Assembly: GCA_903919035.1 (NCBI GenBank)
Contig: CAIXGY010000271.1
Span: forward strand, 1-40,000
Source of the DNA: an uncultured Planctomycetaceae bacterium
Lineage (GTDB): Bacteria; Planctomycetota; Planctomycetia; Pirellulales; UBA1268
DNA: 40,000 nt
Reading direction: 5' to 3'
Below are positions 20,769-36,299 of this stretch, piece after piece. Position 1 is the stretch's first letter, and each line of letters begins with the position of its first letter. The position numbers and the translations under genes were made by a program. Under the pieces are notes generated by a model. It had not been told where the DNA came from. It worked only from the letters and a program-made list of their open reading frames with translations, and ran no database searches.

Positions 20769-22622
20769 ATGTGTGGCATCGCGGGAATCGTCGGGGCCGA
20801 TCGCCAGGAGATCGAGGCCGCGCTGCGCCGCATGGTGCCCGCCATGCTCCATCGCGGGCCCGACGACTCGGGGTTCGAGTTCCTGCCGACCACGCTCGCC
20901 GGCCGGCCGGTCACGGCGGGTTTTGGTTTTCGACGGCTGGCAATCCTCGATCTTTCGCCTGCCGGGCACCAGCCGATGCTCAATGCCGAGACCGGCGACT
21001 GCCTGATCTTCAACGGCGAGATCTACAACTTTCGAGACCTCAAGGCCGAGTTGGAGGCGGACGGCTGTCGCTTCCGCAGTTCATCCGACACGGAAGTGTT
21101 GCTGCAGGCGCTCGGCCGGTGGGGCGATCGCGCCCTCGAGCGACTGGAGGGCATGTATGCCTTCGCGTTCTATCGAGCCGAAGATCGTCGCGTGCTCATC
21201 GCCCGGGATCCACTGGGCATCAAGCCGCTGTACGTGGCCGAAGTGGAAGGACGATTCCTCTTCGCCAGCGAGATCCGTACGCTCCTGGCGTCGGGCCTCG
21301 TGCCCCGCGACCTCGACGCGGATGGGATCGCGGGGATGCTGGCCTTCGGATCGGTGCAAGGCCCGCGCACCGTCTACGAGCGGATCCGGGAGTTTCCGGC
21401 CGCGCATTGCCGATGGCTGGAATCCACCCCGCGGTCGTTCTGGGAGTTGCCGGCGGTGCGGGCCGGCTCGGATGTCGACGCGGCATCCATGGTGCGCCAC
21501 CGGGTCCAGCACGCCGTCCGCCGCCACCTCGTGGCCGACGTGCCGGTCGGCATCTTCCTCTCCGCGGGCATCGACAGCACGATTATCGCTGCCTGCGCGG
21601 CCGATGCCGGTGCCCGCGTCACGGCCTTCACGGTGGGGATCGGCGACCGCTACCCCGATGACGAGGTCGCCGTGGCCACGGCGACCGCCCGGGATCTCGG
21701 TATTCCCCACCGTGCCGTGCCGATCGAGACCACCACGCTCCCGGGTCTGTTCCAGCGGTGGATCGATTCGCTCGACAGTCCCTCTATCGACGGGTTCAAC
21801 ACGTATCTCGTCACCAAGGCTCTCGCCGATCAGGGCATCAAGGTGGGGCTCTCGGGACTCGGCGCGGACGAACTGTTCGGCGGATATCCCGTGTTTCACA
21901 CTGCCCCGAGGCTCGCCCGGCTGCTCCGCGCGGTGCCCGGCCCGGTGCGTTCGGCATCCGCGCCGCTGGCCGCAGCCATCCTGCGGTCGGCGGGCCGGGC
22001 AGGACCGGCGGAGAAACTGTCCTCGATCCTGGCTGGACGACCCGACCTAGCCGACGTGGTCGTCGGGCTGCGTCGGATCGCTTCGGACCGTACCCTCGCG
22101 ACCCTGGGGCTTCGCCCGATCGACGGGGTGCGCCGCCCGGCCGTGGCCGGTGACGCCTTCAACGTGATTTCCCGGATCGAGGTGGCGCACTACATGCGGA
22201 ACACGCTGCTTCGCGATTCCGATGCCAACAGCATGGGCCATTCGCTCGAACTGCGGGTGCCGTTTCTCGACCTGCCGCTGGTGGAGGCGGTCGCCGCGTT
22301 GCCGGGCGGGGTGAAGGAAGCCCGGGGCGGTCCCGGGAAACGGCTGCTCCGCGAGGCATCGAGCGGTCACCTCCCGTCGGCCGTCGTGGCCCGCCGCAAG
22401 ACTGGCTTTCGCCTGCCGATCGGCGACTGGATTCGAGGCGACATGCGCGACTTTTGCGAACACGCGATCGCATCGGCCGCGTCGATTCCGGTGCTGCGGG
22501 GCGACCCGGTTCGCGACGTCTGGCGACGGTATGCCGACGTGCGGGGCCCCGCCCCGTGGGCAAACCCTTTCGCGCTCGTCGTGCTGGGGGCCTGCCTTCA
22601 ACGCCAAGCGGCGGCGCTCTGA
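20769..22622 (+). CDS. Asparagine synthase (glutamine-hydrolysing) family amidotransferase, copy 2
   Basis: MCGIAGIVGADRQ, MLHRGPDDSGFEF, FNGEIYNFRDLK, PP-loop FLSAGIDSTIIAAC, LSGLGADELFGGY; preceded by GGGAGGAGCGGC. Confidence 0.92.
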   Translation: MCGIAGIVGADRQEIEAALRRMVPAMLHRGPDDSGFEFLPTTLAGRPVTAGFGFRRLAILDLSPAGHQPMLNAETGDCLIFNGEIYNFRDLKAELEADGCRFRSSSDTEVLLQALGRWGDRALERLEGMYAFAFYRAEDRRVLIARDPLGIKPLYVAEVEGRFLFASEIRTLLASGLVPRDLDADGIAGMLAFGSVQGPRTVYERIREFPAAHCRWLESTPRSFWELPAVRAGSDVDAASMVRHRVQHAVRRHLVADVPVGIFLSAGIDSTIIAACAADAGARVTAFTVGIGDRYPDDEVAVATATARDLGIPHRAVPIETTTLPGLFQRWIDSLDSPSIDGFNTYLVTKALADQGIKVGLSGLGADELFGGYPVFHTAPRLARLLRAVPGPVRSASAPLAAAILRSAGRAGPAEKLSSILAGRPDLADVVVGLRRIASDRTLATLGLRPIDGVRRPAVAGDAFNVISRIEVAHYMRNTLLRDSDANSMGHSLELRVPFLDLPLVEAVAALPGGVKEARGGPGKRLLREASSGHLPSAVVARRKTGFRLPIGDWIRGDMRDFCEHAIASAASIPVLRGDPVRDVWRRYADVRGPAPWANPFALVVLGACLQRQAAAL

Positions 22623-24538
22623 CGACCCGCCGTTCCCGAGACGATCGGGGGCGGACCGACAGCGGAGCACCGGCGAGCACGTCTGTAGGCCTGGGACGTG
22701 GCCTCGGGCACCGATCCCGCCGGACCGGACGGACACGCCCCGGTGGCAGCATGGACATGCGCCAAGCCGACGAGCACGGCGACGTGCGCGTTGCCGGGAT
22801 CGTACTGCCAGGAGCCCTGTGCCTCGCGCAGCACGTCCTCGAGGGATGGCGAGACAAGCGCGATCGGCGGCGTGGAGGCCGCCGCCCGCGATGCGGCGAT
22901 GGCGAGCCGCAGCCGGGACAGCAGGCGCTCCGAGGCGGCGTCGCGGGCGAGTAATGCGACCGCGAGCAGCAGCGTCGCCGCAAACGCGGCCCGCACTGGT
23001 CTTCTAGGACGTGCGGCAGTGCCGGACGGCGACAGGCCGCTCCCGGCCGCGATGCCGAGCGCCAGAACGGCCAGCAGGGCGTTCGCCGGGCAGTGCATGT
23101 TCCAGTCGAAGAACGAATGCACAGCCAGCGCCGCCGTGGCGGCCCACGCCGCGGGCGCCGCCCACGACAGACCGCGATTCCGCGTTGCGACGAAGCGCAT
23201 CAGCAGTCGGCCCAGGACGGCCGCCAGGCCGATGCCGATACCAGCGCCGATGACGCCGGTTTCCGCGAGTAGTTGGGCGTAGTCGTCGTGAGCGTAGTAG
23301 GACACGAATCTCCCGCGATCAAGCGTACCCGTGAGTTCACCGTAACTCGTCAGCCCGGTCCCCAGCACGGGTGACGCACGAAACATCCGCAGGGCCGTGG
23401 CCGTCTCATCCACCCGTGGATCCGCCAGCATCGCCTGGGCGGATGGTTGCCACGACGCGGGCAGCGTGTCGACGACCCAAGGGCAGGCCCCGAAAAACAC
23501 CAGCACGAAGACGGCCAGGAGTAGCGCGTAGGCCGCGGTCGCGGCGGCCAGCACTCGGCGCGATCGCGGCAGCGGGCACGCCAGCGTGAAAAACACCAGC
23601 ATGCCCAGCAGCAATGCGGCCGCGCCCGCCCGGGAGCGGACTATTTCCCACGACGTGTAGACGCTCGCCGCCGCGAGCATGGCGGCGGTGAGCCAGACGG
23701 CCGGCGGTGGGACGCCACGCTTCCTCATCAGGTGCATCACGACGGCGAGCAGCGCCGGCACCGTGAGGCACAGAGCGCCGGCGAAATGATTGCTGTAGAT
23801 GTAGGGGCCGAATCCGTCTCCCGCGCGGCTGTCGAGCGTCTCGTAACGGCAGTTGCCCGCGGTGACGGTCACCCGTTCGCCCACCCCGCAGGTTCGCAGC
23901 GGCGGTTCCAGGGGGGTGAGCCAATATTCGATCGGTCCCTTCAAGTCGACGCAGCCGAGAATTACGCGGTCCTTCGGCGTGACGGGAAACGCGAGTCCAA
24001 GGATCCACACGAGAGCCCCCGAGACTGCGATCGAGAAGGTGAGCCACCGTCGCCACCGCCCGGCCCTCGCGAGATCCGCCACCACGAACACCGTGACGAG
24101 GCCGAGCAGCAGGCGACGAATGCCGACGGCCGTGGCGGCCGGGTGAACGGCGATTGTGCCCCAGCCACCACCCCCGGCTTCTGCCAACGCCACCTTCCAC
24201 GCCGCGCCGGAGATCGGCGCCAGGCTCATGAGCAGGCGATCGGGCAGCGGCAGGATCTGGAGGCAGGCGATGCCGGCGATGCCCAGGGGCACGAGCATCG
24301 CGAACAGCGGCCGCGGCTCCGACAGCGCCCAGATGAGCGCCGCGGCCGCCAGGGTCGCCTCCAGCGCGAAACGCGGCCAGGCGGCGGTGGCGCCCAGGGC
24401 CAGTGGTGCCACCACTGCGGCGGCGCCCAGCAGGGCGACGCAGATCGATTCCGCAACGCTGGCCGCGCCATGAATCGTCCGTGCGGCGGTGGCCGGCCGC
24501 CCTCCGGTCGCTTCGCCTGCCGCCGCGGGCGTCGTCAC
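22598..24538 (-). CDS. O-antigen ligase/polymerase family membrane protein (Wzy/WaaL-like)
   Basis: Many TM helices (VCVALLGAAAVVAPLALGATAAW, LLLGLVTVFVVADL and others), large periplasmic-like loop, and GTGLTSYGELTG...YYAHDDYAQLLAETGVIGAGIGIGLA typical of O-antigen ligases. GTG start at 24538 overlaps the upstream gene stop (GTGA). N-terminal part of ORF 22598..25981 is a shadow frame. Confidence 0.75.
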   Translation of the reverse strand: MTTPAAAGEATGGRPATAARTIHGAASVAESICVALLGAAAVVAPLALGATAAWPRFALEATLAAAALIWALSEPRPLFAMLVPLGIAGIACLQILPLPDRLLMSLAPISGAAWKVALAEAGGGGWGTIAVHPAATAVGIRRLLLGLVTVFVVADLARAGRWRRWLTFSIAVSGALVWILGLAFPVTPKDRVILGCVDLKGPIEYWLTPLEPPLRTCGVGERVTVTAGNCRYETLDSRAGDGFGPYIYSNHFAGALCLTVPALLAVVMHLMRKRGVPPPAVWLTAAMLAAASVYTSWEIVRSRAGAAALLLGMLVFFTLACPLPRSRRVLAAATAAYALLLAVFVLVFFGACPWVVDTLPASWQPSAQAMLADPRVDETATALRMFRASPVLGTGLTSYGELTGTLDRGRFVSYYAHDDYAQLLAETGVIGAGIGIGLAAVLGRLLMRFVATRNRGLSWAAPAAWAATAALAVHSFFDWNMHCPANALLAVLALGIAAGSGLSPSGTAARPRRPVRAAFAATLLLAVALLARDAASERLLSRLRLAIAASRAAASTPPIALVSPSLEDVLREAQGSWQYDPGNAHVAVLVGLAHVHAATGACPSGPAGSVPEATSQAYRRARRCSAVGPPPIVSGTAGRQSAAAWR

Positions 24539-26031
24539 GCCGCCTCCCTGGACGCCGGACGGCCGGACGGCTCCATCCGCACGGGTGCCGGGAGCGGGAG
24601 CGGTCGGAGCCACGGGCCGCCGATGGGGGCGGTGGCCGACCAGCCCACGAGCAGCAGCACGAGCATCCCCATTCCACCGGGCGAGAAGAGCACCGACTCC
24701 GTGAGATTGATCAGCAGTACTGCCATGAACACGGTGAACGGCACGATGCCGCCGCGGGTCGACCGCGCCCCGAGCATGAAAATCCAGCCGAACACGAGGA
24801 TCGCGAGCGGATACCCGAGTTCCTCGATCACGGCCAGCGGCATCACGCCCTTTTCGACCGTGAACATGATCGGCAGCCCGAAGATGGGATCGCGGGCGAT
24901 GCCGTTCCACTCGTCCTCGGAGGAATTGACGCCGAAGCCGATGCCGGAATACGGGTGTGCGGCGATGTTTTCCAGGAGTCGCTCGATGAGGAAGCCGCGA
25001 GCCTGCTGATAGGCCTCGGTCACGTTCGTGACCCCCTCGTTTCCCTTCTGGATGAAGTCCTCGTAGAAATTCGTTACCCGTTCCCAGTTCACGATCAGCA
25101 GCAGCGCGAGCAGTGCGGTGGCCAGGCCCACGCGGGATGCCACCACCTTGGGCGACTTGCGAAAATTCGCCATCAGCCCGCGGCAGGCCTCCGCGATCAG
25201 GCCGAAGGTCATGCTGGCGATGAACGACATGAGCGCCACCCGCGATCGAGACAGATAGACCATCAGCAGGCCCACGAGCAGCATGCCGATCCTCCACTTG
25301 GGCAGCGGACGCATCGTGAGGCACTGCATGCCCACGTAGGCCGAGAGCACGGCCATGATGGGGCCGAAGTTCTGCGGATGCACCATGACCCCCTGGAAGA
25401 GTCCGGGGTTCTTCATGTAGCCCATGCCCAGCGGAATGATCGGGATGCTGGTCACCGCGGCCACCATGAGGCCGCCAAAAATGATTTTTTCGGCGAATTG
25501 CCGCTCGCCCGCGTCCATCCACGACCAGCCCGTGAAGATGGTGAGCACCACGATCGTGAACGAGATGATCTTGAGCAGCGACACGTCGAGCAGGGGGCTC
25601 ACGGCCACCGAGTGGGCCATGATGAGCAGGCAGATCAGCACGGTGTAGGGGATCAGGATCCATCCCTGGCGGGTCGCGCGTGGGCTGCGGCCGGCGGTGA
25701 GCACCGCCACCAAGCAGCAGAAATACACAAGATACCGCAGCAGCGCCGCGGCCTGGGGCACGCCGCCGAGCGTGTGGTTCGTGAGGTTGAAGATGCAGCA
25801 CAGGAACAGCGCTACGATGGCTTGGCTGCGGCCGGCGAACGCGTAGCCCGCGATCAACAGGTAACTGACGGTGGCTGTCGGCGGCGACGCGATGCGCAGC
25901 AGCGTTGCCAGGATCGGCACGACCAGCCTGTTGAGCGGGGTCGGCACGCTCCGCGTGCGCGCACGCCATTCCTCGACCCACTGTGCCGGGGGCGTGACCT
26001 CCGCGCGAGATGTCGCACTGCCGCTGGCCAT
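24535..26031 (-). CDS. O-antigen polymerase/ligase-like membrane protein
   Basis: Multi-TM protein of 498 aa; GRSQAIVALFLCCIFNLTNHT, LVGLLMVYLSRSRVALMSFIASMTFGL and HPYSGIGFGVNSSEDEWNGIARDPIFGLPIMFTVEKGVMPLAVIEELGYPLAILVFGWIF resemble Wzy/O-antigen ligase domains. Confidence 0.75.
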   Translation of the reverse strand: MASGSATSRAEVTPPAQWVEEWRARTRSVPTPLNRLVVPILATLLRIASPPTATVSYLLIAGYAFAGRSQAIVALFLCCIFNLTNHTLGGVPQAAALLRYLVYFCCLVAVLTAGRSPRATRQGWILIPYTVLICLLIMAHSVAVSPLLDVSLLKIISFTIVVLTIFTGWSWMDAGERQFAEKIIFGGLMVAAVTSIPIIPLGMGYMKNPGLFQGVMVHPQNFGPIMAVLSAYVGMQCLTMRPLPKWRIGMLLVGLLMVYLSRSRVALMSFIASMTFGLIAEACRGLMANFRKSPKVVASRVGLATALLALLLIVNWERVTNFYEDFIQKGNEGVTNVTEAYQQARGFLIERLLENIAAHPYSGIGFGVNSSEDEWNGIARDPIFGLPIMFTVEKGVMPLAVIEELGYPLAILVFGWIFMLGARSTRGGIVPFTVFMAVLLINLTESVLFSPGGMGMLVLLLVGWSATAPIGGPWLRPLPLPAPVRMEPSGRPASREAA

Positions 26032-27776
26032 CAGGCTTCCACCACTTCCGCGAACCGGCCGGTCTTCGCCACCACGCCCTGGTCCAGCTTGACGAGCTCG
26101 TCGCAGGCCGCGACGGTGCTCAACCGGTGGGCCACGATGATGAGCGTTTTCGACCCGTGCAGGTCGTTGACGGCCGCCATCACCTCCGACTCCGTCGCCG
26201 TGTCGAGGGAACTGGTCGCCTCGTCGAGCACCAGGATGAGCGGATCGCGGTAGAGCGCCCGCGCGATGCCGATCCGCTGCCGCTGGCCGCCCGACAAGCG
26301 GACGCCTCGCTCGCCGACCAGTGTTTCCGCCCCGGCCGGCAGCGTGGCCACGAAGGCATCGAGCTGGGCCGCCCGCAGGGCGCGGCGCACGGCCTCGTCG
26401 TCGACCTCGTCGTCAGGCACGCCGAACGCGATGTTGCGCCGAATCGTGTCGTCGGTGAGGTAGATCGACTGGGGCACGTAGCCGATCGCATTCTGCCACG
26501 ACCGCAGGCAGGTGTGGATATCGCGGCCGTCGACCAGCACCCCGCCGCGCTGGGGCGTGAGCAGGCCGAGCAGGACGTCGACGAGCGTGCTCTTTCCGGC
26601 ACCGCTGCCACCCACGATGCCGATTGACTGTCCCTTGCGAATCGTCAGGCTCACGCCTTGCAGTGACGGCTTTGCTGCCCCCGGATAGGTGAAAGTCAGG
26701 TCGCGGAGTGCGATCGCGTCCTGAAACGAGATCCGCGAACCGTCAGCGACGCCGGTCTCGGGCACCGGTATGGCCAGTTCGGCGGTGAGCGAATCGAGCG
26801 TGGCCTGCATCGACCGGGTGTTCTGCCACGTGATCAACATTCGGTTGGCAGACGGCAGCACGCGGAACGCCGCGGCCGCGAACAGTCCGATCCGTGCCAT
26901 CACCTCCGCCGCCGAATTCCCCTGCCCGACCAGGACGGCCCCCAGAACGACGAGGCCGGCGACCGACAGCAACTCGTACCAGAGCCGCGGCAGTTGCTGG
27001 GAGGTGTTGATCCGACTGCGAAGGCTGGCGGCCGCCACGTCGTGCCGCTCGAACTCCCGTTGAAATTCCCGTTCGCGACCGAACAGCTTCACGTCCTTCG
27101 CGCCACCGAGCCCTTGATGGAGATGTTTCGTCCTCAGGATCTCGTGTTCGCGGAGCCGTCGACCCCAGCCCTGCAGCCTGTGCCGCGACAGGACTTGAAA
27201 CACCCACGTGGCCACGCCAAGGACGGCGGCGATGCTCATGGCACCGGCCGGCTCCATCACGAGGAGCAGCGCGATGATGCCCGCGATCACGAGGGATTCC
27301 GTGATGAACGACAGCAGGGCCGAGCAGAGGTAGGTGAATTGGCTGACTTCGCCGGTCGCATTTTGGATGAGCCCGGCCGAATTACGTTGCAGGTGAAACG
27401 TCCAGGGTTGTCGCAGGTAGCTGGCGAAAAGCCGCTGCGACACGCTCGATTGGACTTCCGCGACGAACTTGGTCTGCCGCCACAAGAGGTAGACCATGAA
27501 CGCGGTCTTCACCGTGTAGACCGACAGCATCGCCAGGAGTCCGTAGATGACGAGCAGGCCTTCGGAAGGGTTGCCGAGCCGCTGCCGGACGGCATCCAAC
27601 CACGAGGCGGATTGGCCCATGGCCTGGTTCCCCGTGAGCAGGACGATGGCCGGCAGGACGATGCCCACACCGAGCATTTCCAGGACCATGCCGATGGTCA
27701 TCAGCACGGTGAGCCCCATGGCGTCGCGGCGCTGCCGCTGTTCGAGGAGGCGCCAGACCTGACGCAGCGTGCTCAT
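26031..27776 (-). CDS. ABC transporter, fused permease/ATPase (PglK/MsbA-like flippase)
   Basis: Walker A GIVGGSGAGKSTLVDVLLG; signature LSGGQRQRIGIARAL; Walker B LILVLDEATSSLD; H-loop IIVAHRLSTV; N-terminal TM domain. Confidence 0.9.
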   Translation of the reverse strand: MSTLRQVWRLLEQRQRRDAMGLTVLMTIGMVLEMLGVGIVLPAIVLLTGNQAMGQSASWLDAVRQRLGNPSEGLLVIYGLLAMLSVYTVKTAFMVYLLWRQTKFVAEVQSSVSQRLFASYLRQPWTFHLQRNSAGLIQNATGEVSQFTYLCSALLSFITESLVIAGIIALLLVMEPAGAMSIAAVLGVATWVFQVLSRHRLQGWGRRLREHEILRTKHLHQGLGGAKDVKLFGREREFQREFERHDVAAASLRSRINTSQQLPRLWYELLSVAGLVVLGAVLVGQGNSAAEVMARIGLFAAAAFRVLPSANRMLITWQNTRSMQATLDSLTAELAIPVPETGVADGSRISFQDAIALRDLTFTYPGAAKPSLQGVSLTIRKGQSIGIVGGSGAGKSTLVDVLLGLLTPQRGGVLVDGRDIHTCLRSWQNAIGYVPQSIYLTDDTIRRNIAFGVPDDEVDDEAVRRALRAAQLDAFVATLPAGAETLVGERGVRLSGGQRQRIGIARALYRDPLILVLDEATSSLDTATESEVMAAVNDLHGSKTLIIVAHRLSTVAACDELVKLDQGVVAKTGRFAEVVEA

Positions 27777-28441
27777 GTGCCGGGCTCCGGGAGCGGTGCG
27801 GTGCGGCCCGGCACGCCGTGGACCAGTGAATCCGCCGGCGCATCACGGAGGGCGCATGAATTGGCCGCCACCTTGGTCCGCGGACCGAGCGTCACGGTCG
27901 GGCCGACCGTGGCGTGCATGGCGAGAAAGCAATCTTCGGAGACTCGCGCGCCGCCTGCCAGGGCCGCGTAGGGGGAGAGCACGGCATAGTCCCCTACGGA
28001 TGAGTCGTGAGCGATGGAGGCGTGGTAGTTGACCAGCACGCAACGGCCGACCGCGGCGGCGTCGCTCACGACGGCGGCGGGGCACACGATCGATCCCGGG
28101 CCGATCGCGGCAGTGGGCGCGACGATCGCGGAGGGATGGATCAGCGTCACGAAACGCGCTCCTCGGGCCAAAAGAGTCTCTGCGACGTGGCGGCGGACCC
28201 CCGGGATGCCGATGGCCAGCAGCAGTCCGTCATGGGGCTCGGGAACGAATGTTGCCGGATCGGCGATCACCGGGGGCGCATCCTCATGGCTTACGAGATT
28301 ATCAGCATCCGCCGAAAGAAATCCGCACACGCGTCGGTTGTCGGCCGGCCAGGCGTCTCGGGCCCACTGCAGGACTTCCCGGCCGAACCCCCCCGCTCCT
28401 ACGATGAGGAGGCGACTGACGTCGGGGGGCGGGAAGCGCAT
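27773..28441 (-). CDS. Sugar O-/N-acetyltransferase, PglD/NeuD family
   Basis: RLLIVGAGGFGREVLQWARDAWP N-terminus; hexapeptide repeats IGPGSIVCPAAVVSDAAAVGRCVLVNYHASIAHDSSVGDYAVLSP; ends VHGVPGRTAPLPEPG. Confidence 0.85.
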   Translation of the reverse strand: MRFPPPDVSRLLIVGAGGFGREVLQWARDAWPADNRRVCGFLSADADNLVSHEDAPPVIADPATFVPEPHDGLLLAIGIPGVRRHVAETLLARGARFVTLIHPSAIVAPTAAIGPGSIVCPAAVVSDAAAVGRCVLVNYHASIAHDSSVGDYAVLSPYAALAGGARVSEDCFLAMHATVGPTVTLGPRTKVAANSCALRDAPADSLVHGVPGRTAPLPEPGT

Positions 28442-28576
28442 GACGAACAGATTTCGGGAGAGATCGCCACGGCGGAACCCGTCGCCGCCGGCAGGTACCA
28501 TGACTGATGACAGCCATCATCCGTTGAGTATACGGTCGATCGTGAGCGATTCGTGATTGCCTTCCGAAAGTGTGCC

Positions 28577-30148
28577 ATGGCCCAAAGAGCCGTGTTGTAT
28601 GTGATCGTGCTCGCCTGCGCCGGCCACATCCAGGCCGCAGGCCCGGACGGAAAGGTGCCCCCGGCCGATTGGCTGCGGTCGCTCCCAGCCCCGCTCTTCC
28701 GGGAAGGACATGGGCTCCCCCCCCTCACTCGTTGGGGCTGGAGCCTCGATGCAGCGACCCGTGTCGATGTCGCGGAGCGCTGGGGCTATTGCCTCGAGTT
28801 GGTGGGGTCGGGGAACGATGGCTTCGTCGATCGCGTGCAGAAGAATCCCTCCGACCCGGAGGCGCGGCTCCTGGCGATGGCGATCAAGAATCCGCGACGC
28901 TTTCCGCTCCAGGTCATCACGTCGCGCAAACTCCCCGACTTCGCCCGTGTGCCTCCCGAGACCTGGACCCGCACGGCCGCAGGCGTCTTGGTCAACGGGC
29001 AGGCCAAGTCGCTCGATGGCATGGTCTGGACACCGGGCATGCAACCCGTGTTCAGTCCGCTCACGCCCGACTCCGTGTGGCAGGAGTCGGGGCGTCTGCA
29101 GGCCGAGCCGCTCCGCCAGTTGCACCGACTCTGCCCGATCGCCGTGATTCTCAACGGGGGCGAGTATGGCATGCCCGTGGCCGGCTGGGCGCGGAAGGCG
29201 TGGGAGCAGGATCCCGCGATCGTGAAGGCGAAGGGACAAGCGACCTGGGCGGATTACGGGTCGCAGCGCCTGGCCCGCAGCCAGCGGATCATCGCCGAGG
29301 CTATCAAGGAAGCCGTGCCCGACCGCGGACTCTACGTCTACTACCACTTTGGTGGCGTGCCCTACCGCAACAGCTATCCCGAATGGAATGAATGGCAGGC
29401 GTCGTTTCACGACGCGAAGGGCATCTGCGACCTCCCCAACTCGGTGGCCTACTACAAGGAATACAACACCGGTTGGACGTGGGAAGGCGAGCGTGGCGAC
29501 CTGCTCACCCAGATGCTCAATGCCCGCGGCGAGGAGATCGCGGCCGGCTACCCGCTGGCCTACAACTGGCTCTGCGGCGGCTACAAGGCGGCGGAACCGG
29601 GCCAGATCAGCGAGACGAAACTCTACGCCGGATTCCTCAAGATGCTCTACACGGCCGGCATGGTGGGGGGCAACGCGGGCTACTACGAATATCCCGTGAC
29701 GCATGGCGTGAGGGGCTTCGACGCGCCGTTTCCGCCGGACGACCCGCCGCCGTGGATCCAGCAGATGCTGGCGCTGTCCCGGGTGCACGCGCAGTTTTCG
29801 TTTCTGGAGCATTACCTTCGCGACGGAGATCTCCTGCCGGGCCCGAACAAGCATCGGTGGTCGAAGGATCAGCCCGCCTACGAGTTTCCGACCGGAGACG
29901 CCAACGCGCGGGTGGTGGCCCGACGCCTGCGGGACAAGCCGCAGTGGCTGATCACCGCCTGGGCCGCGGACGGCAACGAGCGGGAGGTGCAGGTCACTAT
30001 CCCGGACCTCGGCCGCGTCACGCTGCTGGCCCGCGGCTGCGCGACGGTGCACAAGGCGAAAGTCGTCGACGGCAAGCCGGTGACGGCTTATTTCGACTCA
30101 GGGGACGAATACTGGGATCGAGGTATCGACAATCCCCTGCGGCGGTGA
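28577..30148 (+). CDS. Secreted protein of unrecognised family; possible glycoside-hydrolase-like fold
   Basis: Signal-peptide-like MAQRAVLYVIVLACAGHIQAAG; Trp/Tyr-rich central domain (YVYYHFGGVPYRNSYPEWNEWQ, YKEYNTGWTWEGERGDLL); beta-rich C-terminus. Alternative GTG start at 28553. Confidence 0.7.
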   Translation: MAQRAVLYVIVLACAGHIQAAGPDGKVPPADWLRSLPAPLFREGHGLPPLTRWGWSLDAATRVDVAERWGYCLELVGSGNDGFVDRVQKNPSDPEARLLAMAIKNPRRFPLQVITSRKLPDFARVPPETWTRTAAGVLVNGQAKSLDGMVWTPGMQPVFSPLTPDSVWQESGRLQAEPLRQLHRLCPIAVILNGGEYGMPVAGWARKAWEQDPAIVKAKGQATWADYGSQRLARSQRIIAEAIKEAVPDRGLYVYYHFGGVPYRNSYPEWNEWQASFHDAKGICDLPNSVAYYKEYNTGWTWEGERGDLLTQMLNARGEEIAAGYPLAYNWLCGGYKAAEPGQISETKLYAGFLKMLYTAGMVGGNAGYYEYPVTHGVRGFDAPFPPDDPPPWIQQMLALSRVHAQFSFLEHYLRDGDLLPGPNKHRWSKDQPAYEFPTGDANARVVARRLRDKPQWLITAWAADGNEREVQVTIPDLGRVTLLARGCATVHKAKVVDGKPVTAYFDSGDEYWDRGIDNPLRR

Positions 30149-30225
30149 CCGGTGGCGTGGGATGCGTGACGTCGCCCCGGACCCGGTCGCGGCGCGCGGC
30201 TCTCGGGATGACACCACGCCTGTGA

Positions 30226-30231
30226 TAGCAT
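30226..30231 (+). promoter_or_regulatory. Candidate -10 element (TAGCAT) six bases upstream of ATG
   Basis: TAGCAT-ccaggc-ATG (30238). Same spacing as at 36435. Confidence 0.3.
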
Positions 30232-30237
30232 CCAGGC

Positions 30238-31536
30238 ATGCCCAGCCCGAAGCCCGAGCCCCTCTCACCGCCCCTTTCCATCTGGCTGGTCAACCCGTTC
30301 GACGACATCCCCGGCGAGGGCCTGCCGGCGATGCGCTACTGGTCGCTGGCCCGCGTGCTCGCCGCCCGCGGCCACGACGTGACCTGGTGGAGCGCCACCT
30401 GGAGCCACCGCCGCAAGGCCATCCGCTCGATGCCGCTCGGGCTGGCCGATGACGAGGGGTTCGCCCTGCGGCTCGTGGCCGTCAGGCCCTACGAGAAGAA
30501 CGTGTCGTTCGCCCGGATCGGCAGCCACCGCGACTTCGGTCGCACGTTCGAACGACTGGCCTGCGAGTCGGTGGCCGCCGGCCAACTCGGCCGCCCCGAC
30601 CTGATCGTGGCCAGCCTGCCGCCGCTGGAGGCCCCCGAGGCCGCCCTCCGCGTGGGCAAGCGGCTCGACGCGGCGGTCGTGGTCGACGTGCAGGACCTGT
30701 GGCCCGAGACGTTCGCCCGGCTCGTGCCCGGCCCGGCGTTCCTACGGGGCATCGTGGCCCCCTGGATCCTGCGGGGCATGCGCGACCGTCGTCGCGCGAT
30801 CCTCGCCGCCGCCGGCGCCGTCAGCGCGACCGCCGCATCCCATCTCGAGGCGATCGCCGCCGAGATCCCGGCAGCCACGCCGCGGCATGCGTGTCTGCTG
30901 GGTGCCTATCCGCAGGAGTTTCCCGACCAGTCGCGGATCGCGAACCACTCGGCCGCCGTCGGCGCCGACGAGGCGGGGCGGCCGCCGCTCGAATGCGTCT
31001 ACGCGGGATCGCTCGAGGCCGGCCAGGACCTCGACGCCCTGGTGGCCGCCGCTCGACAGCTCTCTGCCAACGGAGTGTCGGCCACGATCCACGTGGCGGG
31101 CACCGGCATGCTCGAGCCCATGGTCGAGCGCGCGGCCGCGACGCTCGGCGGCCCCTGTCGGATCGTGCACCACGGCCTGCTCGGCCGGCGCGACTACGTC
31201 CGTGTCCTCGCCGCCTGCGACGTGGGGCTCGTGTGCGTGAAGCCGGAGTCGCAGGTCGTCCTGCCCAACAAGGCCTGCGACTACGCGGCTGCTGGGCTGG
31301 CACTGATCAACTCGCTGCCGGGAGAACTGGCCCGGCTCATCGACCACTACGGTGCGGGCCTGAACTACACGGCCGGCGACGGAGCGTCGCTGGCTCGTGC
31401 CATCTCGGATCTCGCCGCCAACAGGGGCCGGCTCGCCGACATGCGGCGTGCCTCCCGGCGGCTGGCCGCCCTCGAATTCGACCGCGAACGACTCTACCCG
31501 CGGTTCGCCGACTGGCTGGAAACCATCCCCGCCTGA
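30238..31536 (+). CDS. Glycosyltransferase family 4 (WbuB-like)
   Basis: SIWLVNPFDDIPGEGLPAMRYWSLARVLAARGHDVTWWSATWSHRRK; VVVDVQDLWPETFARLVPG; ECVYAGSLEAGQDLDALVAAARQL; LPNKACDYAAAGLALINSLPGEL. Confidence 0.87.
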   Translation: MPSPKPEPLSPPLSIWLVNPFDDIPGEGLPAMRYWSLARVLAARGHDVTWWSATWSHRRKAIRSMPLGLADDEGFALRLVAVRPYEKNVSFARIGSHRDFGRTFERLACESVAAGQLGRPDLIVASLPPLEAPEAALRVGKRLDAAVVVDVQDLWPETFARLVPGPAFLRGIVAPWILRGMRDRRRAILAAAGAVSATAASHLEAIAAEIPAATPRHACLLGAYPQEFPDQSRIANHSAAVGADEAGRPPLECVYAGSLEAGQDLDALVAAARQLSANGVSATIHVAGTGMLEPMVERAAATLGGPCRIVHHGLLGRRDYVRVLAACDVGLVCVKPESQVVLPNKACDYAAAGLALINSLPGELARLIDHYGAGLNYTAGDGASLARAISDLAANRGRLADMRRASRRLAALEFDRERLYPRFADWLETIPA

Positions 31537-31630: not shown

Positions 31631-33256
31631 ATGGCACATTTTCGACACCATCCCACGAAGCGGCCGATCTCGCGGCTGGCGGAGGTGCTCCGCCTGGAAC
31701 GCCGCGACATCCTCACGGTCTGCCTGTTCGCGATCGCGGTCGGGATCCTGTCGCTCGTGACGCCGGCGGCCATCGAAGCCCTGGTCAACACCGTGCAGTT
31801 CGGCGTGCAGCTCTGGCCGGTGCTCGTGCTGTCGGGCGTGATGCTCGGATTCCTGGCGCTCGCCGCGACGCTGCGGGCCATGCAGTTGCTCGTTGTCGAA
31901 TGCATCCAGCGGCGGCTCTTCGTCCGCACCGCCGACGCCTTCGCCGACCACTTCGCCAGGGCCGAGATCACCGCCTTCGACGGGACGAACCCCACCGACA
32001 TCGTCAACCGCTTCTTCGAGGTGGCCGGCGCGCAGAAATCGATCGCCACGCTGCTGGTGGACGGCGTCGGCATCGTGACGCTCACGCTCGTCGGCCTGGT
32101 CGTGCTCGCCTTCTACCATCCGTATCTGCTCACGTTCGCGGTCGTGATCGCGGCCCTCATGGTGTTCATGCTGTTCGTGCTCGGGATCGGCGGCGTGCGG
32201 ACGAGCATCGGCGAGAGTTACGCGAAGTTCGACGTGGCCGCCTGGCTGGAGGAACTCGCGAAGTGTCCCCACACGTTCCGCTTCGGTCGCGGCGGGATGC
32301 TCGCCCACGAGCGGGCCGACGCCCTTGCCGGCGCCTACGTGACCGCGCGGCGGGCGCACTATCGCGTGGTCTGGCGGCAGACGCTCTTCGCGCTCCTCCT
32401 GGAGGCGATCGGCATGACCGTTCTCCTCGGTCTGGGCGGCTGGCTCGTCATCAATCGCCAGCTCACCATCGGCCAGCTCGTCGCGGGCGAGCTCATCGTG
32501 GCCCTGATCCTCACGGCGTTGTCGAAGATCGGCAAGTATCTCGAGACCTTCTACGACCTGCAGGCGTCGCTCGACAAACTCGGCGTGCTCGACCAGTTGC
32601 CGTTGGAACGCGAGGGGGGCGAGACGCTGCCGGCGACCGACCGCCCCCTGGCCGTCGTCGCGGAAGTCACCGTCCGCGGTCGGCAGCGGCGGCTCGAGGT
32701 GCAGCCCGGTGAGCGGGTGGCCATCACGGGCCCGTCCGGCTGCGGCAAGACCTTCCTGCTCGAGACGCTGGGACTGCTCCGCGTGCCCGAGGAGGGGCTG
32801 CTCGAATTCGACGGCCTCGACGCCCGGTCACTGGATCGGTCGCGAACCCGCCTCGAACTGGCCTACGTGGGCCAGTCGGAGACGTTCGCCGACACCGTGG
32901 CGGAGAACATCCGTGTGGGCCGATCCGACCTCAGCGCCGCCGACGTCCGCCGGGCGCTCGACATGGTGGGACTCGCCGACGAGGTGGCCCGCCTGCCGCA
33001 GGGCGTGGGCACGCCGCTCGGCTCCGATGGCAAGCCGCTGTCGGCCAATGCCATCGCCCGCCTGTCGATCGCCCGGGCGCTGGCCGGCAAGCCGCGGCTG
33101 CTTCTCATCAACGGCCTCCTCGACACCCTCGACACCCGCGATTGCCCGCAACTCGTGGAGTCACTCTTCGACCGTGCCGCGCCGTGGAGTCTCGTGATCG
33201 TGACCGCCCGAGACGACATCCGCCGACAGTGCGACAAGACGGTGGACTGGACATGA
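31631..33256 (+). CDS. ABC-transporter-like protein (TM domain plus degenerate nucleotide-binding domain) in a type I-like export module
   Basis: N-terminal TM domain; Walker A GPSGCGKTFLLETLGLL; Q-loop-like YVGQSETFADTVAENI. Other motifs degenerate: LSANA for LSGGQ, LLLINGLLDTLD for LLLDEATSALD, VTARDD in the H-loop. Translation checked at nucleotide level around 33040-33140. Confidence 0.85.
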   Translation: MAHFRHHPTKRPISRLAEVLRLERRDILTVCLFAIAVGILSLVTPAAIEALVNTVQFGVQLWPVLVLSGVMLGFLALAATLRAMQLLVVECIQRRLFVRTADAFADHFARAEITAFDGTNPTDIVNRFFEVAGAQKSIATLLVDGVGIVTLTLVGLVVLAFYHPYLLTFAVVIAALMVFMLFVLGIGGVRTSIGESYAKFDVAAWLEELAKCPHTFRFGRGGMLAHERADALAGAYVTARRAHYRVVWRQTLFALLLEAIGMTVLLGLGGWLVINRQLTIGQLVAGELIVALILTALSKIGKYLETFYDLQASLDKLGVLDQLPLEREGGETLPATDRPLAVVAEVTVRGRQRRLEVQPGERVAITGPSGCGKTFLLETLGLLRVPEEGLLEFDGLDARSLDRSRTRLELAYVGQSETFADTVAENIRVGRSDLSAADVRRALDMVGLADEVARLPQGVGTPLGSDGKPLSANAIARLSIARALAGKPRLLLINGLLDTLDTRDCPQLVESLFDRAAPWSLVIVTARDDIRRQCDKTVDWT

Positions 33257-34647
33257 CCACTCAGCCGCATTCCCCGCCCGCCCCGAAGCCGGCGAAGTCG
33301 GCCCTCGCCGCAGCGGCGACTCCGCGCTCGATCCGCCGCCTGTCCCGCCTGTTTTTCCTGCTCTTCCTGGCCACCCCGTTTCTCCTGGCCTTCGTGCCCT
33401 GGCAGCAGACCGTGAACTGCCGGGGCATGGTCGTCGCATTCTCTCCAGTCGAGCGGATGCAGGTGCTCACGGCGCGGGTCTCGGGGCAGATCCGCACCTG
33501 GCACGTGGTCGAGGGAACCCGCGTGAAGATGAACGATCCGGTGGTCGATATCGAAGACAACGACCCTGACCTCGCGCAGAGGCTCGAAGCGCAGCGCGCC
33601 TTCCTCGAGGGCCGCCTCGCGGCGGCCCGCGACGAGGTCGCGGAACTGACCGCCGCCACGCAGGCCCAGGAGGGGGCTCGCGCCGCGGCCGTCAAAGCGG
33701 CGGAGGCGAACCGCGATGCGGCACGGAAGGCGATCGAAGTGGCCGAGCAGTCGGGCGCCAACGCCCGGTTTGCCCAGGAATTCGAGCGCAATCGCTTCGA
33801 GACGTTCGACGACTTGTTCACGAACCCGCAGTTCGGCGGGCTCGAGAGCCGCCTGTCTCGCGACGAGGCCCGGATGCGGTCCGACCGCGCCCAGACCGAC
33901 GTCGATCGCGCGGCAGCCGAAATCCAGCGGGCCCAGGCCGCCCTGCTCACCCAGGAGTCGCTCGTGCTCCAGGCCGACGCCGCGGGGCTCTCGGCGATCG
34001 CCGTGGCCCGCAGCAACCTGCGGAAGGCGGAGCAGAACCTGTTCTCGGTCGAGCGGGAGTTGCAGGAAATCGCCAACCGTATCGAGCGGTTCAAGGCTCG
34101 GATCGTCGTCGCGCCGTGCGACGGCACCGTCTTCCGCGTGTCGGCGAACGTCGGCCAGGGCGGCCAGTACGTGAAGGAAGGCGACGAGCTGTGCACCATC
34201 GTTCCAGACACCAACGACCGGGTCGTCGAACTCTATCTCGACGGGCTCGACGCGCCGCTGGTGCGGGCCTATCAGGACCGTACCGGGGCGATGCCGCACG
34301 TGCGGCTACAGTTCGAGGGCTGGCCGGCGGTGCAGTTCTCCGGCTGGCCGGAACTGGCGATCGGCACCTTCGGCGGTCGGGTGCGGCAGATCGACTCGGC
34401 GGCCATGCCCGACGGCAAGTTTCGCGTGCTCGTCGAGCCGGAGCAGCGGCTCCAGGGAGACGAGTGGCCCGCGGCGGAATTCCTCCGGCAAGGCAATCAG
34501 GCCGTGGGCTGGGTGTTTCTCAACCGCGTGCCGCTGGGCTACGAGATCTGGCGGCGGCTGAACGGCTTTCCACCCGTGCTGGCGCCGGCCGCGAAGGACA
34601 AGGGCGACGGCAAGGGCGGCAAGCCTCCCAAGGTCAAGGTGGGCTGA
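33253..34647 (+). CDS. HlyD-family periplasmic adaptor / membrane fusion protein
   Basis: Single N-terminal TM (LFFLLFLATPFLLAFVPW); biotinyl-lipoyl-like halves VLTARVSGQIRTWHVVEGTRVKMNDPVVDIEDND and RIVVAPCDGTVFRVSANVGQGGQYVKEGDELCTIV flanking a long coiled coil. ATG overlaps the upstream stop. Confidence 0.87.
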   Translation: MTTQPHSPPAPKPAKSALAAAATPRSIRRLSRLFFLLFLATPFLLAFVPWQQTVNCRGMVVAFSPVERMQVLTARVSGQIRTWHVVEGTRVKMNDPVVDIEDNDPDLAQRLEAQRAFLEGRLAAARDEVAELTAATQAQEGARAAAVKAAEANRDAARKAIEVAEQSGANARFAQEFERNRFETFDDLFTNPQFGGLESRLSRDEARMRSDRAQTDVDRAAAEIQRAQAALLTQESLVLQADAAGLSAIAVARSNLRKAEQNLFSVERELQEIANRIERFKARIVVAPCDGTVFRVSANVGQGGQYVKEGDELCTIVPDTNDRVVELYLDGLDAPLVRAYQDRTGAMPHVRLQFEGWPAVQFSGWPELAIGTFGGRVRQIDSAAMPDGKFRVLVEPEQRLQGDEWPAAEFLRQGNQAVGWVFLNRVPLGYEIWRRLNGFPPVLAPAAKDKGDGKGGKPPKVKVG

Positions 34648-36299
34648 CGCACCGGCTCGCGAGGCTGGCGGTCGCCGCCGTGGTCGTGGCGGCTACGATG
34701 CCCGCGTCGTCCCGCGGCCAGGATCTCGCGCCGCTGCCGTCGCCACTGCCGGCCGCATCGGCGCCGGTCGCTCTGCCGCAGGTCGCCCCGGTGCCGGAGG
34801 AGGTCGTGGCCCCGCCCCCCGGGCCGCCGTCCATCGACATCGTCGATCCCACGCCGCTCCCGGCGTCGGCGTCGTTGCAGATCCCGGGCCTGGCCCTCGA
34901 CGAGCGACCCGAGCCGCTCACCCTCGCGGAGGTGCTGCAGAGCGTGCTCACCCACTATCCGCTCCTCCAGGCCGTGGAGCGCGAGCGCGGCATCGCGGCG
35001 GGACGCTACACGACCGCGATGGGCGCCTTCGACACCAACGTCAACATGGCCGGCAACGCGTTGGCCCCCGGAACCTACGAGAACTACCGCTCGGACTTCG
35101 GCCTCTCCCAGCAGTTCATGACGGGCGGCATGACCGCCTTCGGCGGTTTCCGCACGGGCTTTGGTGATTTCCCCACCTACAACCTCGGGCAGAAGACGGC
35201 CGCGGCGGGCGAGTGGCGGGGCGGGCTCACCATTCCCCTCGCCAAGAACCGTGACATCGACCGCGCCCGTGCCACCCGCGCGCAGGCGGAACTCGACATC
35301 GCGCTGGCCGAGCCGGTGATCGAACGGAGTCGCCTCGACTACATGCGGGCCGCCGCGCGGTCGTATTGGGCCTGGCAGGGCAGCGGCGAACGCTACTCGG
35401 CGAGCGAGCGCATCCTCCAATATGCGATCGACCGAGACGAACAGCTCGAGTTGAAGGTCAGGGCCGGGGCCGTCGCCAACATCGAGCGGATCGACAACCA
35501 ACAAAACATCGCCCTCCGCAACGGGCTCGTGGTGCAGGCGGATCGGGGCGTGCAGCAGGCCGCGATCGACCTCTCCCTCTACCATCGAGACGCCGGCGGC
35601 CGGCCGCTCCTGGCCCGGCGGGTGCGGATGCGGCCCGTGCCCCTGCCGGTGCGGCCGTCCACCGACCTCTACCAGCAGGCCCTCTCGCGGGCGCTGGCCG
35701 CCCGTCCCGAATTTCAACGGCTTTCGATCCAGCGGGAGAAGCTGCTCGTGGAACGGAAGTTTGCCGCGAATCAGACGCTGCCCGCGATCGACGGCCAGAT
35801 CCTCGGCAACCAGGATGCCGGCTACGGCAAGAGCCCGCTCTCCGGCCCCGAGGGCCTCGACCGCCAGGTCCTGCAGGCTTCGCTCGTCTTCCAGATGCCG
35901 GCCCAGCGGCGCGATGCCCGCGGCAAACTCCAGACGCTCGAGTCGCAACTCATGCAGATCGACCGCCAGCTCACCTGGGCGCAGGATCAGATCCGGGCCG
36001 AGGTGCAGGATGCGTTTTCGCTCCTGGAGCGGGCCTTCGAGTTTCACCGGCAGGCCCGGCAGCGGCTCGATCTGGCACGGCTCGTGGCCGACGCCGAGCG
36101 GGAGCAGTTGCGGCTCGGCCGTAGCGACGTGCTCCGCGTGACTCTTCGGGAGCAGGCCAAGTTCGAGGCCGACGTCCTGGAAGTCACCGCTCGTCAGGAA
36201 TTCTGGCGGGCCGAGAGTGACCTGCGGGCGGCCGACACGTCGCTCGGTCCCGAGAGCCCGGGGCTCCTGCCGGCGGCCGTGCTTCCGGACCTGCGGTAG
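34644..36299 (+). CDS. TolC-like outer membrane efflux protein
   Basis: EPLTLAEVLQSVLTHYPLLQAVERERGIAAGRY; coiled-coil repeats (QLTWAQDQIRAEVQDAFSLLERAFEFHRQARQRLDLARLVADAEREQLRLGRSDVLRV). Start uncertain: CTG 34644 restores a signal peptide; ATG 34698 is the first downstream ATG. Confidence 0.82.
   Translation: MTHRLARLAVAAVVVAATMPASSRGQDLAPLPSPLPAASAPVALPQVAPVPEEVVAPPPGPPSIDIVDPTPLPASASLQIPGLALDERPEPLTLAEVLQSVLTHYPLLQAVERERGIAAGRYTTAMGAFDTNVNMAGNALAPGTYENYRSDFGLSQQFMTGGMTAFGGFRTGFGDFPTYNLGQKTAAAGEWRGGLTIPLAKNRDIDRARATRAQAELDIALAEPVIERSRLDYMRAAARSYWAWQGSGERYSASERILQYAIDRDEQLELKVRAGAVANIERIDNQQNIALRNGLVVQADRGVQQAAIDLSLYHRDAGGRPLLARRVRMRPVPLPVRPSTDLYQQALSRALAARPEFQRLSIQREKLLVERKFAANQTLPAIDGQILGNQDAGYGKSPLSGPEGLDRQVLQASLVFQMPAQRRDARGKLQTLESQLMQIDRQLTWAQDQIRAEVQDAFSLLERAFEFHRQARQRLDLARLVADAEREQLRLGRSDVLRVTLREQAKFEADVLEVTARQEFWRAESDLRAADTSLGPESPGLLPAAVLPDLR

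Follow-up and report, generated by a model that had tools for sequence, protein, structure and literature searches.

A tripartite export module with a degenerate nucleotide-binding domain in Planctomycetota and relatives lacking the domain

Genes of the export module and predicted fold of its ABC subunit

The window, a stretch of 40,000 nucleotides from an uncultured Planctomycetaceae bacterium (contig CAIXGY010000271.1), encodes a tripartite export module on the plus strand. Its first gene (31631-33256), a frame that is open throughout, specifies an ABC-exporter-like subunit of 541 amino acids composed of a six-helix transmembrane domain (TMD) and a degenerate nucleotide-binding domain (NBD). 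The stop codon of this gene contains the start of the second (ATGA at 33253-33256), which encodes a HlyD/MFP periplasmic adaptor of 464 amino acids (33253-34647). The third gene (34644-36299) encodes a TolC-like outer-membrane factor (PF02321) with an uncertain start codon; a possible start is the CTG at 34644, which overlaps the HlyD stop and is followed by a signal-peptide-like stretch. With HlyD as the query, a search of PDB sequences returned no match. Upstream of the module lies an apparent glycan-related cluster (20769-31536), encoding asparagine-synthase-like and O-antigen-ligase-like proteins, a canonical ABC protein on the minus strand and a glycosyltransferase.

The family-specific TMD of the first protein (31661-32626; TMD profile A1, E 3e-155) contains coupling helix 1 in ICL1 (residues 113-116, 31967-31978) and coupling helix 2 in ICL2 (residues 213-217, 32267-32281). 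The NBD (residues 331-541, 32621-33253) retains an intact Walker A motif with its lysine, GPSGCGKT (residues 367-374, 32729-32752), and a Q-loop-like YVGQSETF (residues 412-419, 32864-32887). The remaining hallmarks of an active ATPase are lost: LSANA replaces LSGGQ at the signature position (residues 470-474, 33038-33052), the Walker B Asp and the catalytic Glu are Asn and Gly in LLLINGLLD (residues 490-498, 33098-33124), and the H-switch residue in VIVTARDD (residues 522-529) is Ala (residue 526, 33206-33208). The first-pass annotation of this DNA had described exactly these motif states in an uninterrupted frame, followed by overlapping HlyD- and TolC-like genes, and had set them against a canonical ABC protein in the same window; all of this was borne out. 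The latter protein (26031-27776, minus strand) has every motif canonical and matches the Pfam NBD model with 110.8 bits, compared with 62.9 bits for the window protein (residues 354-493), the TMD match of which was sub-threshold.

AlphaFold, applied to the window protein aligned with 58 relatives, predicted an ABC-exporter half with high confidence (pLDDT 93.1, pTM 0.85), and the NBD fold, for which a structure prediction had been proposed as a check, is present in the model. In a Foldseek search the best PDB match was HlyB from the HlyB/D complex (8dck, TM-score 0.89, 19% identity), and the matches also included TM287/288, TmrAB and PCAT1. The predicted six-helix TMD, NBD fold and coupling helices are those of a type IV ABC exporter. 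Among NCBIfam models the top match was the NHLM bacteriocin exporter subunit ABC2 (TIGR03797), membership of which is ruled out by a score of 140.8 bits where the cut-off is 709.4. The type I secretion system (T1SS) model TIGR01846 gave 139.7 against a curated 725.55, and the scores for all T1SS models lay far under their cut-offs.

The module shares with type I secretion (HlyB/PrtD, HlyD and TolC) the TMD/NBD fold, the tripartite operon and the complete gene set of ABC protein, HlyD and TolC. It differs in that the window protein has no functional NBD motif set, the adaptor and TolC proteins of the family form a distinct conserved set, and no obvious substrate gene was noticed in the ORF list of the window. 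The module thus has the gene set and fold of a T1SS, yet falls short of the curated T1SS cut-offs and, judged from motifs lost in the window protein and an NBD missing in relatives, would lack the ATP-driven motor. T1SS-like adaptors without a working ABC protein are also known from planctomycete HlyD/SecA_DEAD loci (PMC4452313), but these contain a SecA_DEAD gene and no ABC homolog, whereas an ABC-type TMD is always present here, and that system is ruled out. Among open-licence papers, none describing such a module was found.

Degeneration of the NBD in Planctomycetota and its absence in other lineages

Orthologs of the window gene, at 42-79% identity, were found in many related genomes (the named relatives being Planctomycetaceae and Pirellulales MAGs) and in dozens of assemblies, all with open, stop-free frames. 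We assembled 62 planctomycetotal NBDs, 36 of them non-redundant sequences from related genomes and 26 from a phylum-wide draw in which 29 of 294 genomes possessed the family. The catalytic Glu and the switch His were each present in 0 of 62, which fits the proposal that the substitutions would abolish ATP hydrolysis. The Walker A Lys is retained in 31 of 36 related and 23 of 26 phylum-wide sequences, and the motif is broken in several orthologs (L026, L027, L033). The reported degeneration of Walker B and catalytic Glu is to be refined in one respect: Glu is lost in all 62, but the Asp-to-Asn exchange is confined to the nearest relatives of the window protein, most orthologs having Asp. In the control ABC exporter from the same genomes, Walker A, LSGGQ, DE and H were intact in 30 of 30 orthologs. 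Loss of the catalytic residues is thus conserved across Planctomycetota and is not a local decay; canonical motifs in homologs, which would have spoken against the first-pass interpretation, are missing from close homologs, and only distant ones are near-canonical.

The NBD of the family is less conserved than the TMD (58.0% versus 65.5% identity; NBD higher in 1 of 29), whereas in the control exporter it is more conserved (86.8% versus 83.3%; NBD higher in 27 of 29), so that the usual order of conservation is reversed. Both domains nevertheless have dN/dS ratios far below 1, and values of 0.07-0.31 for the NBD in related planctomycetotal pairs indicate that purifying selection continues to act on the dead domain.

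According to TMD profile A1, the family occurs in five phyla: Planctomycetota, Myxococcota, Bdellovibrionota, Bacteroidota and Pseudomonadota. Matches were obtained in 55 of 291 genomes from the phylum of a Bdellovibrionales locus, 42 of 189 from that of a Polyangiaceae locus (Myxococcota), 52 of 198 from that of a Fluviicola locus (Bacteroidota) and 10 of 399 from that of an Algimonas locus (Pseudomonadota). Four genomes with ordinary ABC exporters yielded a single weak match (E 7e-8) and nothing else, and the profile is therefore considered family-specific. Across the family the NBD ranges from near-canonical through wholly unrecognizable to absent. Walker Lys, Glu and His occur together in 12 members from Bdellovibrionota/Myxococcota and 11 from Bacteroidota, and because such near-canonical NBDs occur in distant homologs (e.g. 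L175, L237, L329), the decay took place inside the family. All three residues are missing in 9 of 10 pseudomonadotal members, and Walker A is also destroyed in several Bdellovibrionota.

Many family members are labeled 'ABC transporter ATP-binding protein' by automatic annotation, a name that probably misstates how they work. A named isolate with the module is Novosphingobium aromaticivorans DSM 12444 (L349, plasmid pNL2, SARO_RS19820/19815/19810), the first gene of which is called only 'ABC transporter transmembrane domain-containing protein' in RefSeq. Some order-level and Polyangiaceae members (L053:9727-11913, L055:8969-11104, L082:9248-11740) are extended at the N-terminus by about 170-250 amino acids without a Pfam match, a stretch which might be a C39-like domain. 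Three genomes (G185, G246, G320; L219-L221 with L229, L233) encode two paralogs at separate sites, a full-length protein with a wrecked NBD and a stand-alone TMD.

Sixteen distinct members have no NBD at all, and a seventeenth (L217) resembles a frameshifted TMD-HlyD fusion. Stand-alone TMDs, encoded by ORFs of 291-349 amino acids, were found in Bdellovibrionota (L225, L227-L230, L232, L233) and Bacteroidota (L341, L342), and TMD-HlyD fusions without NBD in Bdellovibrionota (L084, L211-L213) and Myxococcota (L238, L241, L244). The count leaves out L154 and L245, where a separate NBD frame exists, probably owing to a frameshift, and the contig-cut L039, L203, L231 and L309. A second NBD ORF was looked for in the NBD-less loci and none was found, which rules out an NBD split into a neighboring gene. 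In L245 (genome G113) the ABC and TolC frames are split, and in L217 (G106) the TMD-HlyD fusion is interrupted; both may be frameshifts or recent pseudogenes. This dispensability of the NBD, including the TMD-HlyD fusions, had escaped the first-pass annotation.

On a TMD tree, parsimony demands seven changes to explain absence of the NBD, and robustly supported branches make only two of these unavoidable. L241, a fused form, has as its sister (SH-aLRT 100) L243, whose NBD is degenerate, and the Bdellovibrionota fusion clade sits among strongly decayed members. Loss of the domain is accompanied by changes in the loops in which AlphaFold places the coupling helices (residues 113-116 and 213-217). 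All 112 NBD-bearing members have an ICL1 of 27-30 and an ICL2 of 38-39 amino acids, and the stand-alone NBD-less members measured have 16-20 and 23-32, respectively, with a periplasmic control loop of unchanged length; in the fused forms, ICL1 and ICL2 are mostly near full length. Seven ionizable residues (E90, K136, H163, K199, R240, E287, K316) are invariant in all 16 aligned NBD-less TMDs, while R127 and W205, near the coupling helices, drift, and E287 is replaced by Ala in some decayed members. The conserved ionizable residues are no more than suggestive of ion coupling, and they do not appear to represent the glutamate ladder of SbmA.

Conserved operon and gene neighborhood

In 102 unique loci flanked by 3 kb or more in both directions, HlyD adjoins the TMD without exception and TolC is present in 101, so that the degenerate NBDs, as had been asked of the homologs, do stand beside HlyD and TolC. 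L367 and L371 have another gene order, with a TolC-like gene preceding the ABC gene and not following HlyD. An NhaR-like LysR regulator is encoded within 3 kb of the module in 27 of the 102 loci, and it is divergent from or adjacent to the module in about one quarter of loci (L043, L084, L233, L317 and others). The NCBIfam NhaR cut-off was passed in L043 (253.7 versus 219 bits), and in L084, L233 and L317 the NhaR model ranked first without reaching its threshold. NhaR of E. coli is a regulator for high salt and high pH (PMC6307784). Upstream of the window module there is a glycosyltransferase gene and not NhaR.

DabA (PF10070) is encoded near the module in independent loci of Planctomycetota, Bdellovibrionota and Pseudomonadota. 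Module-linked DabA/DabB genes were seen in L057, L058, L048, L068/L373, L357, L365, L354-L356, L372 and L351, from three phyla; DabA is on the same strand as the module in L351 and L355, lies beside an NBD-less TMD in L372, and is joined by a carbonic anhydrase gene in L057 and L058. One locus with both module and DabA is located on a Sphingobium plasmid. Of the 54 loci flanked by 6 kb or more in both directions, six have DabA no further than 6 kb from the module, against an expectation of well under one, calculated on the assumption that a genome of several megabases holds a single DabA gene. The DAB2 complex hydrates CO2 and is driven by the protonmotive force (PMC13144422). The genome of the window has a DabA gene, unlinked to the module. 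The NhaR-like and DabAB neighbors in relatives hint at a role in pH/CO2 physiology.

Energy source and mode of action

The explanation we favor, with a probability of about one half, is that the module is an ABC-derived tripartite exporter which does not need ATP hydrolysis of its own and is probably coupled to an ion gradient, the dead NBD of the window protein serving as a clamp or regulator. Since catalytic Glu, His and signature are lost phylum-wide and the NBD is discarded in relatives, the domain is not an essential motor; relatives from five or more phyla retain the other components although their motor has degenerated or disappeared, so the machine probably works without consuming ATP. 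The gene product would be the inner-membrane part of an envelope exporter made of a TMD dimer, presumably a homodimer, the HlyD adaptor and a TolC duct. Hydrolysis would have been abandoned repeatedly within the family, and the motif loss suggests that the window protein alone is incapable of it. The TMD-HlyD-TolC conduit would most likely alternate access on an ion (proton) gradient, as NBD-less SbmA/BacA does, with export across both membranes as the likely direction. The Pirellulales-type dead NBD, under purifying selection, would probably clamp the dimer or sense a nucleotide or ligand as a regulator, its action being relayed by the preserved coupling helices; because Walker A and full coupling loops are retained in the window protein, nucleotide may still act there. 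The existence of near-canonical members implies that the family probably also includes ATP-driven ones.

Ion coupling is the best reading in view of the dispensable NBD and two precedents: SbmA, an ABC-type TMD which has neither an NBD nor coupling helices, is proton-driven (PMC13316013), and the membrane domains of MsbA and LmrA without their NBDs perform proton-coupled transport (PMC4979069). The stand-alone relatives resemble SbmA/BacA-like peptide transporters (SLiPT) in the features compared, namely an ABC-type TMD without NBD and shortened coupling-helix loops, the latter being characteristic of these proton-driven proteins. E90 and E287 are conserved in 16 of 16 aligned NBD-less TMDs, but no homology to the glutamate ladder was seen. 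The family also differs in belonging to another TMD family and in having HlyD/TolC partners, with probable export over both membranes rather than import. The window protein itself is not a SLiPT, because it keeps the dead NBD and the coupling helices and has HlyD/TolC partners; absence of the NBD applies only to its relatives.

As regards the window protein, the chief alternative, though an unlikely one in our estimate, is that it forms the degenerate half of a heteromer in which a canonical half-transporter encoded elsewhere hydrolyzes ATP, either as in RtxB/RtxE or in a mixed HlyB-type ring of three dimers. RtxB and RtxE both seem to be required for MARTX secretion in Vibrio (PMC3034196), and the HlyB-HlyD complex contains three HlyB dimers (PMC11026475), so that mixed assemblies are possible. 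The four-component MARTX system (RtxB/RtxE/RtxD/TolC) likewise is not built on a single ordinary ABC homodimer, but the module described here has no second ABC gene. The best structural matches of the model include heterodimeric exporters, the coupling helices of the window protein are intact in the model, and its own genome encodes further canonical ABC exporters. However, a linked canonical ABC gene is missing in nearly all family loci, and the canonical ABC protein of the window, a conceivable partner within the locus, is encoded on the other strand and is not conserved beside orthologs. Moreover, with signature and catalytic Glu both degenerate, a heterodimer would be compromised at each of its two composite sites, and relatives without an NBD and with shortened coupling loops retain the same operon. 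A heteromer thus does not account for the NBD-less members, and the first-pass idea that the subunit needs an ATPase partner is unlikely family-wide, as several lineages have no NBD at all.

Less probable still is a non-transporting scaffold or gate, in which the TMD merely anchors and positions HlyD and TolC for another pump. The TMD-HlyD fusions give the TMD the look of an anchor, and the constant proximity of HlyD would also be expected; but HlyD has a membrane anchor of its own, no alternative pump is constantly linked, and the TMD, including its ionizable residues, is more conserved than the NBD, to a degree that exceeds the needs of an anchor. We consider gating as in CFTR slightly more doubtful again: ATP bound without hydrolysis at the retained Walker A would open or close the TMD conduit. 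The Walker A Lys preserved in most planctomycetotal NBDs, the selection on the domain and the coupling loops kept in every NBD-bearing member are compatible with such gating, but Walker A is destroyed in most Pseudomonadota and in several Planctomycetota and Bdellovibrionota, and other members lack the NBD entirely. The earlier suggestion of binding without hydrolysis therefore stands as a possibility for the window protein and, the NBD being dispensable in several lineages, is unlikely for the family. Pseudogene decay or sequencing error, brought to mind by a few single loci that look broken (L245, L217), is ruled out by intact ortholog frames in dozens of assemblies and the low dN/dS of both domains.

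Returning to the exporter that dispenses with its own ATP hydrolysis, we tentatively entertain a wider proposition: that the family constitutes multi-phylum, ABC-derived secondary exporters, spanning two membranes with HlyD and TolC, driven by ions and not by ATP, in some cases fused as TMD-HlyD and at times working with DabAB. If our explanation is correct, the family would add a class of tripartite pumps not powered by an ATPase of their own, and would offer a natural series from a working through a dead to an absent ABC motor within one conserved export machine, in several lineages. The transition from ABC transporter to secondary transporter, so far represented by SbmA/BacA, would thereby become directly testable.
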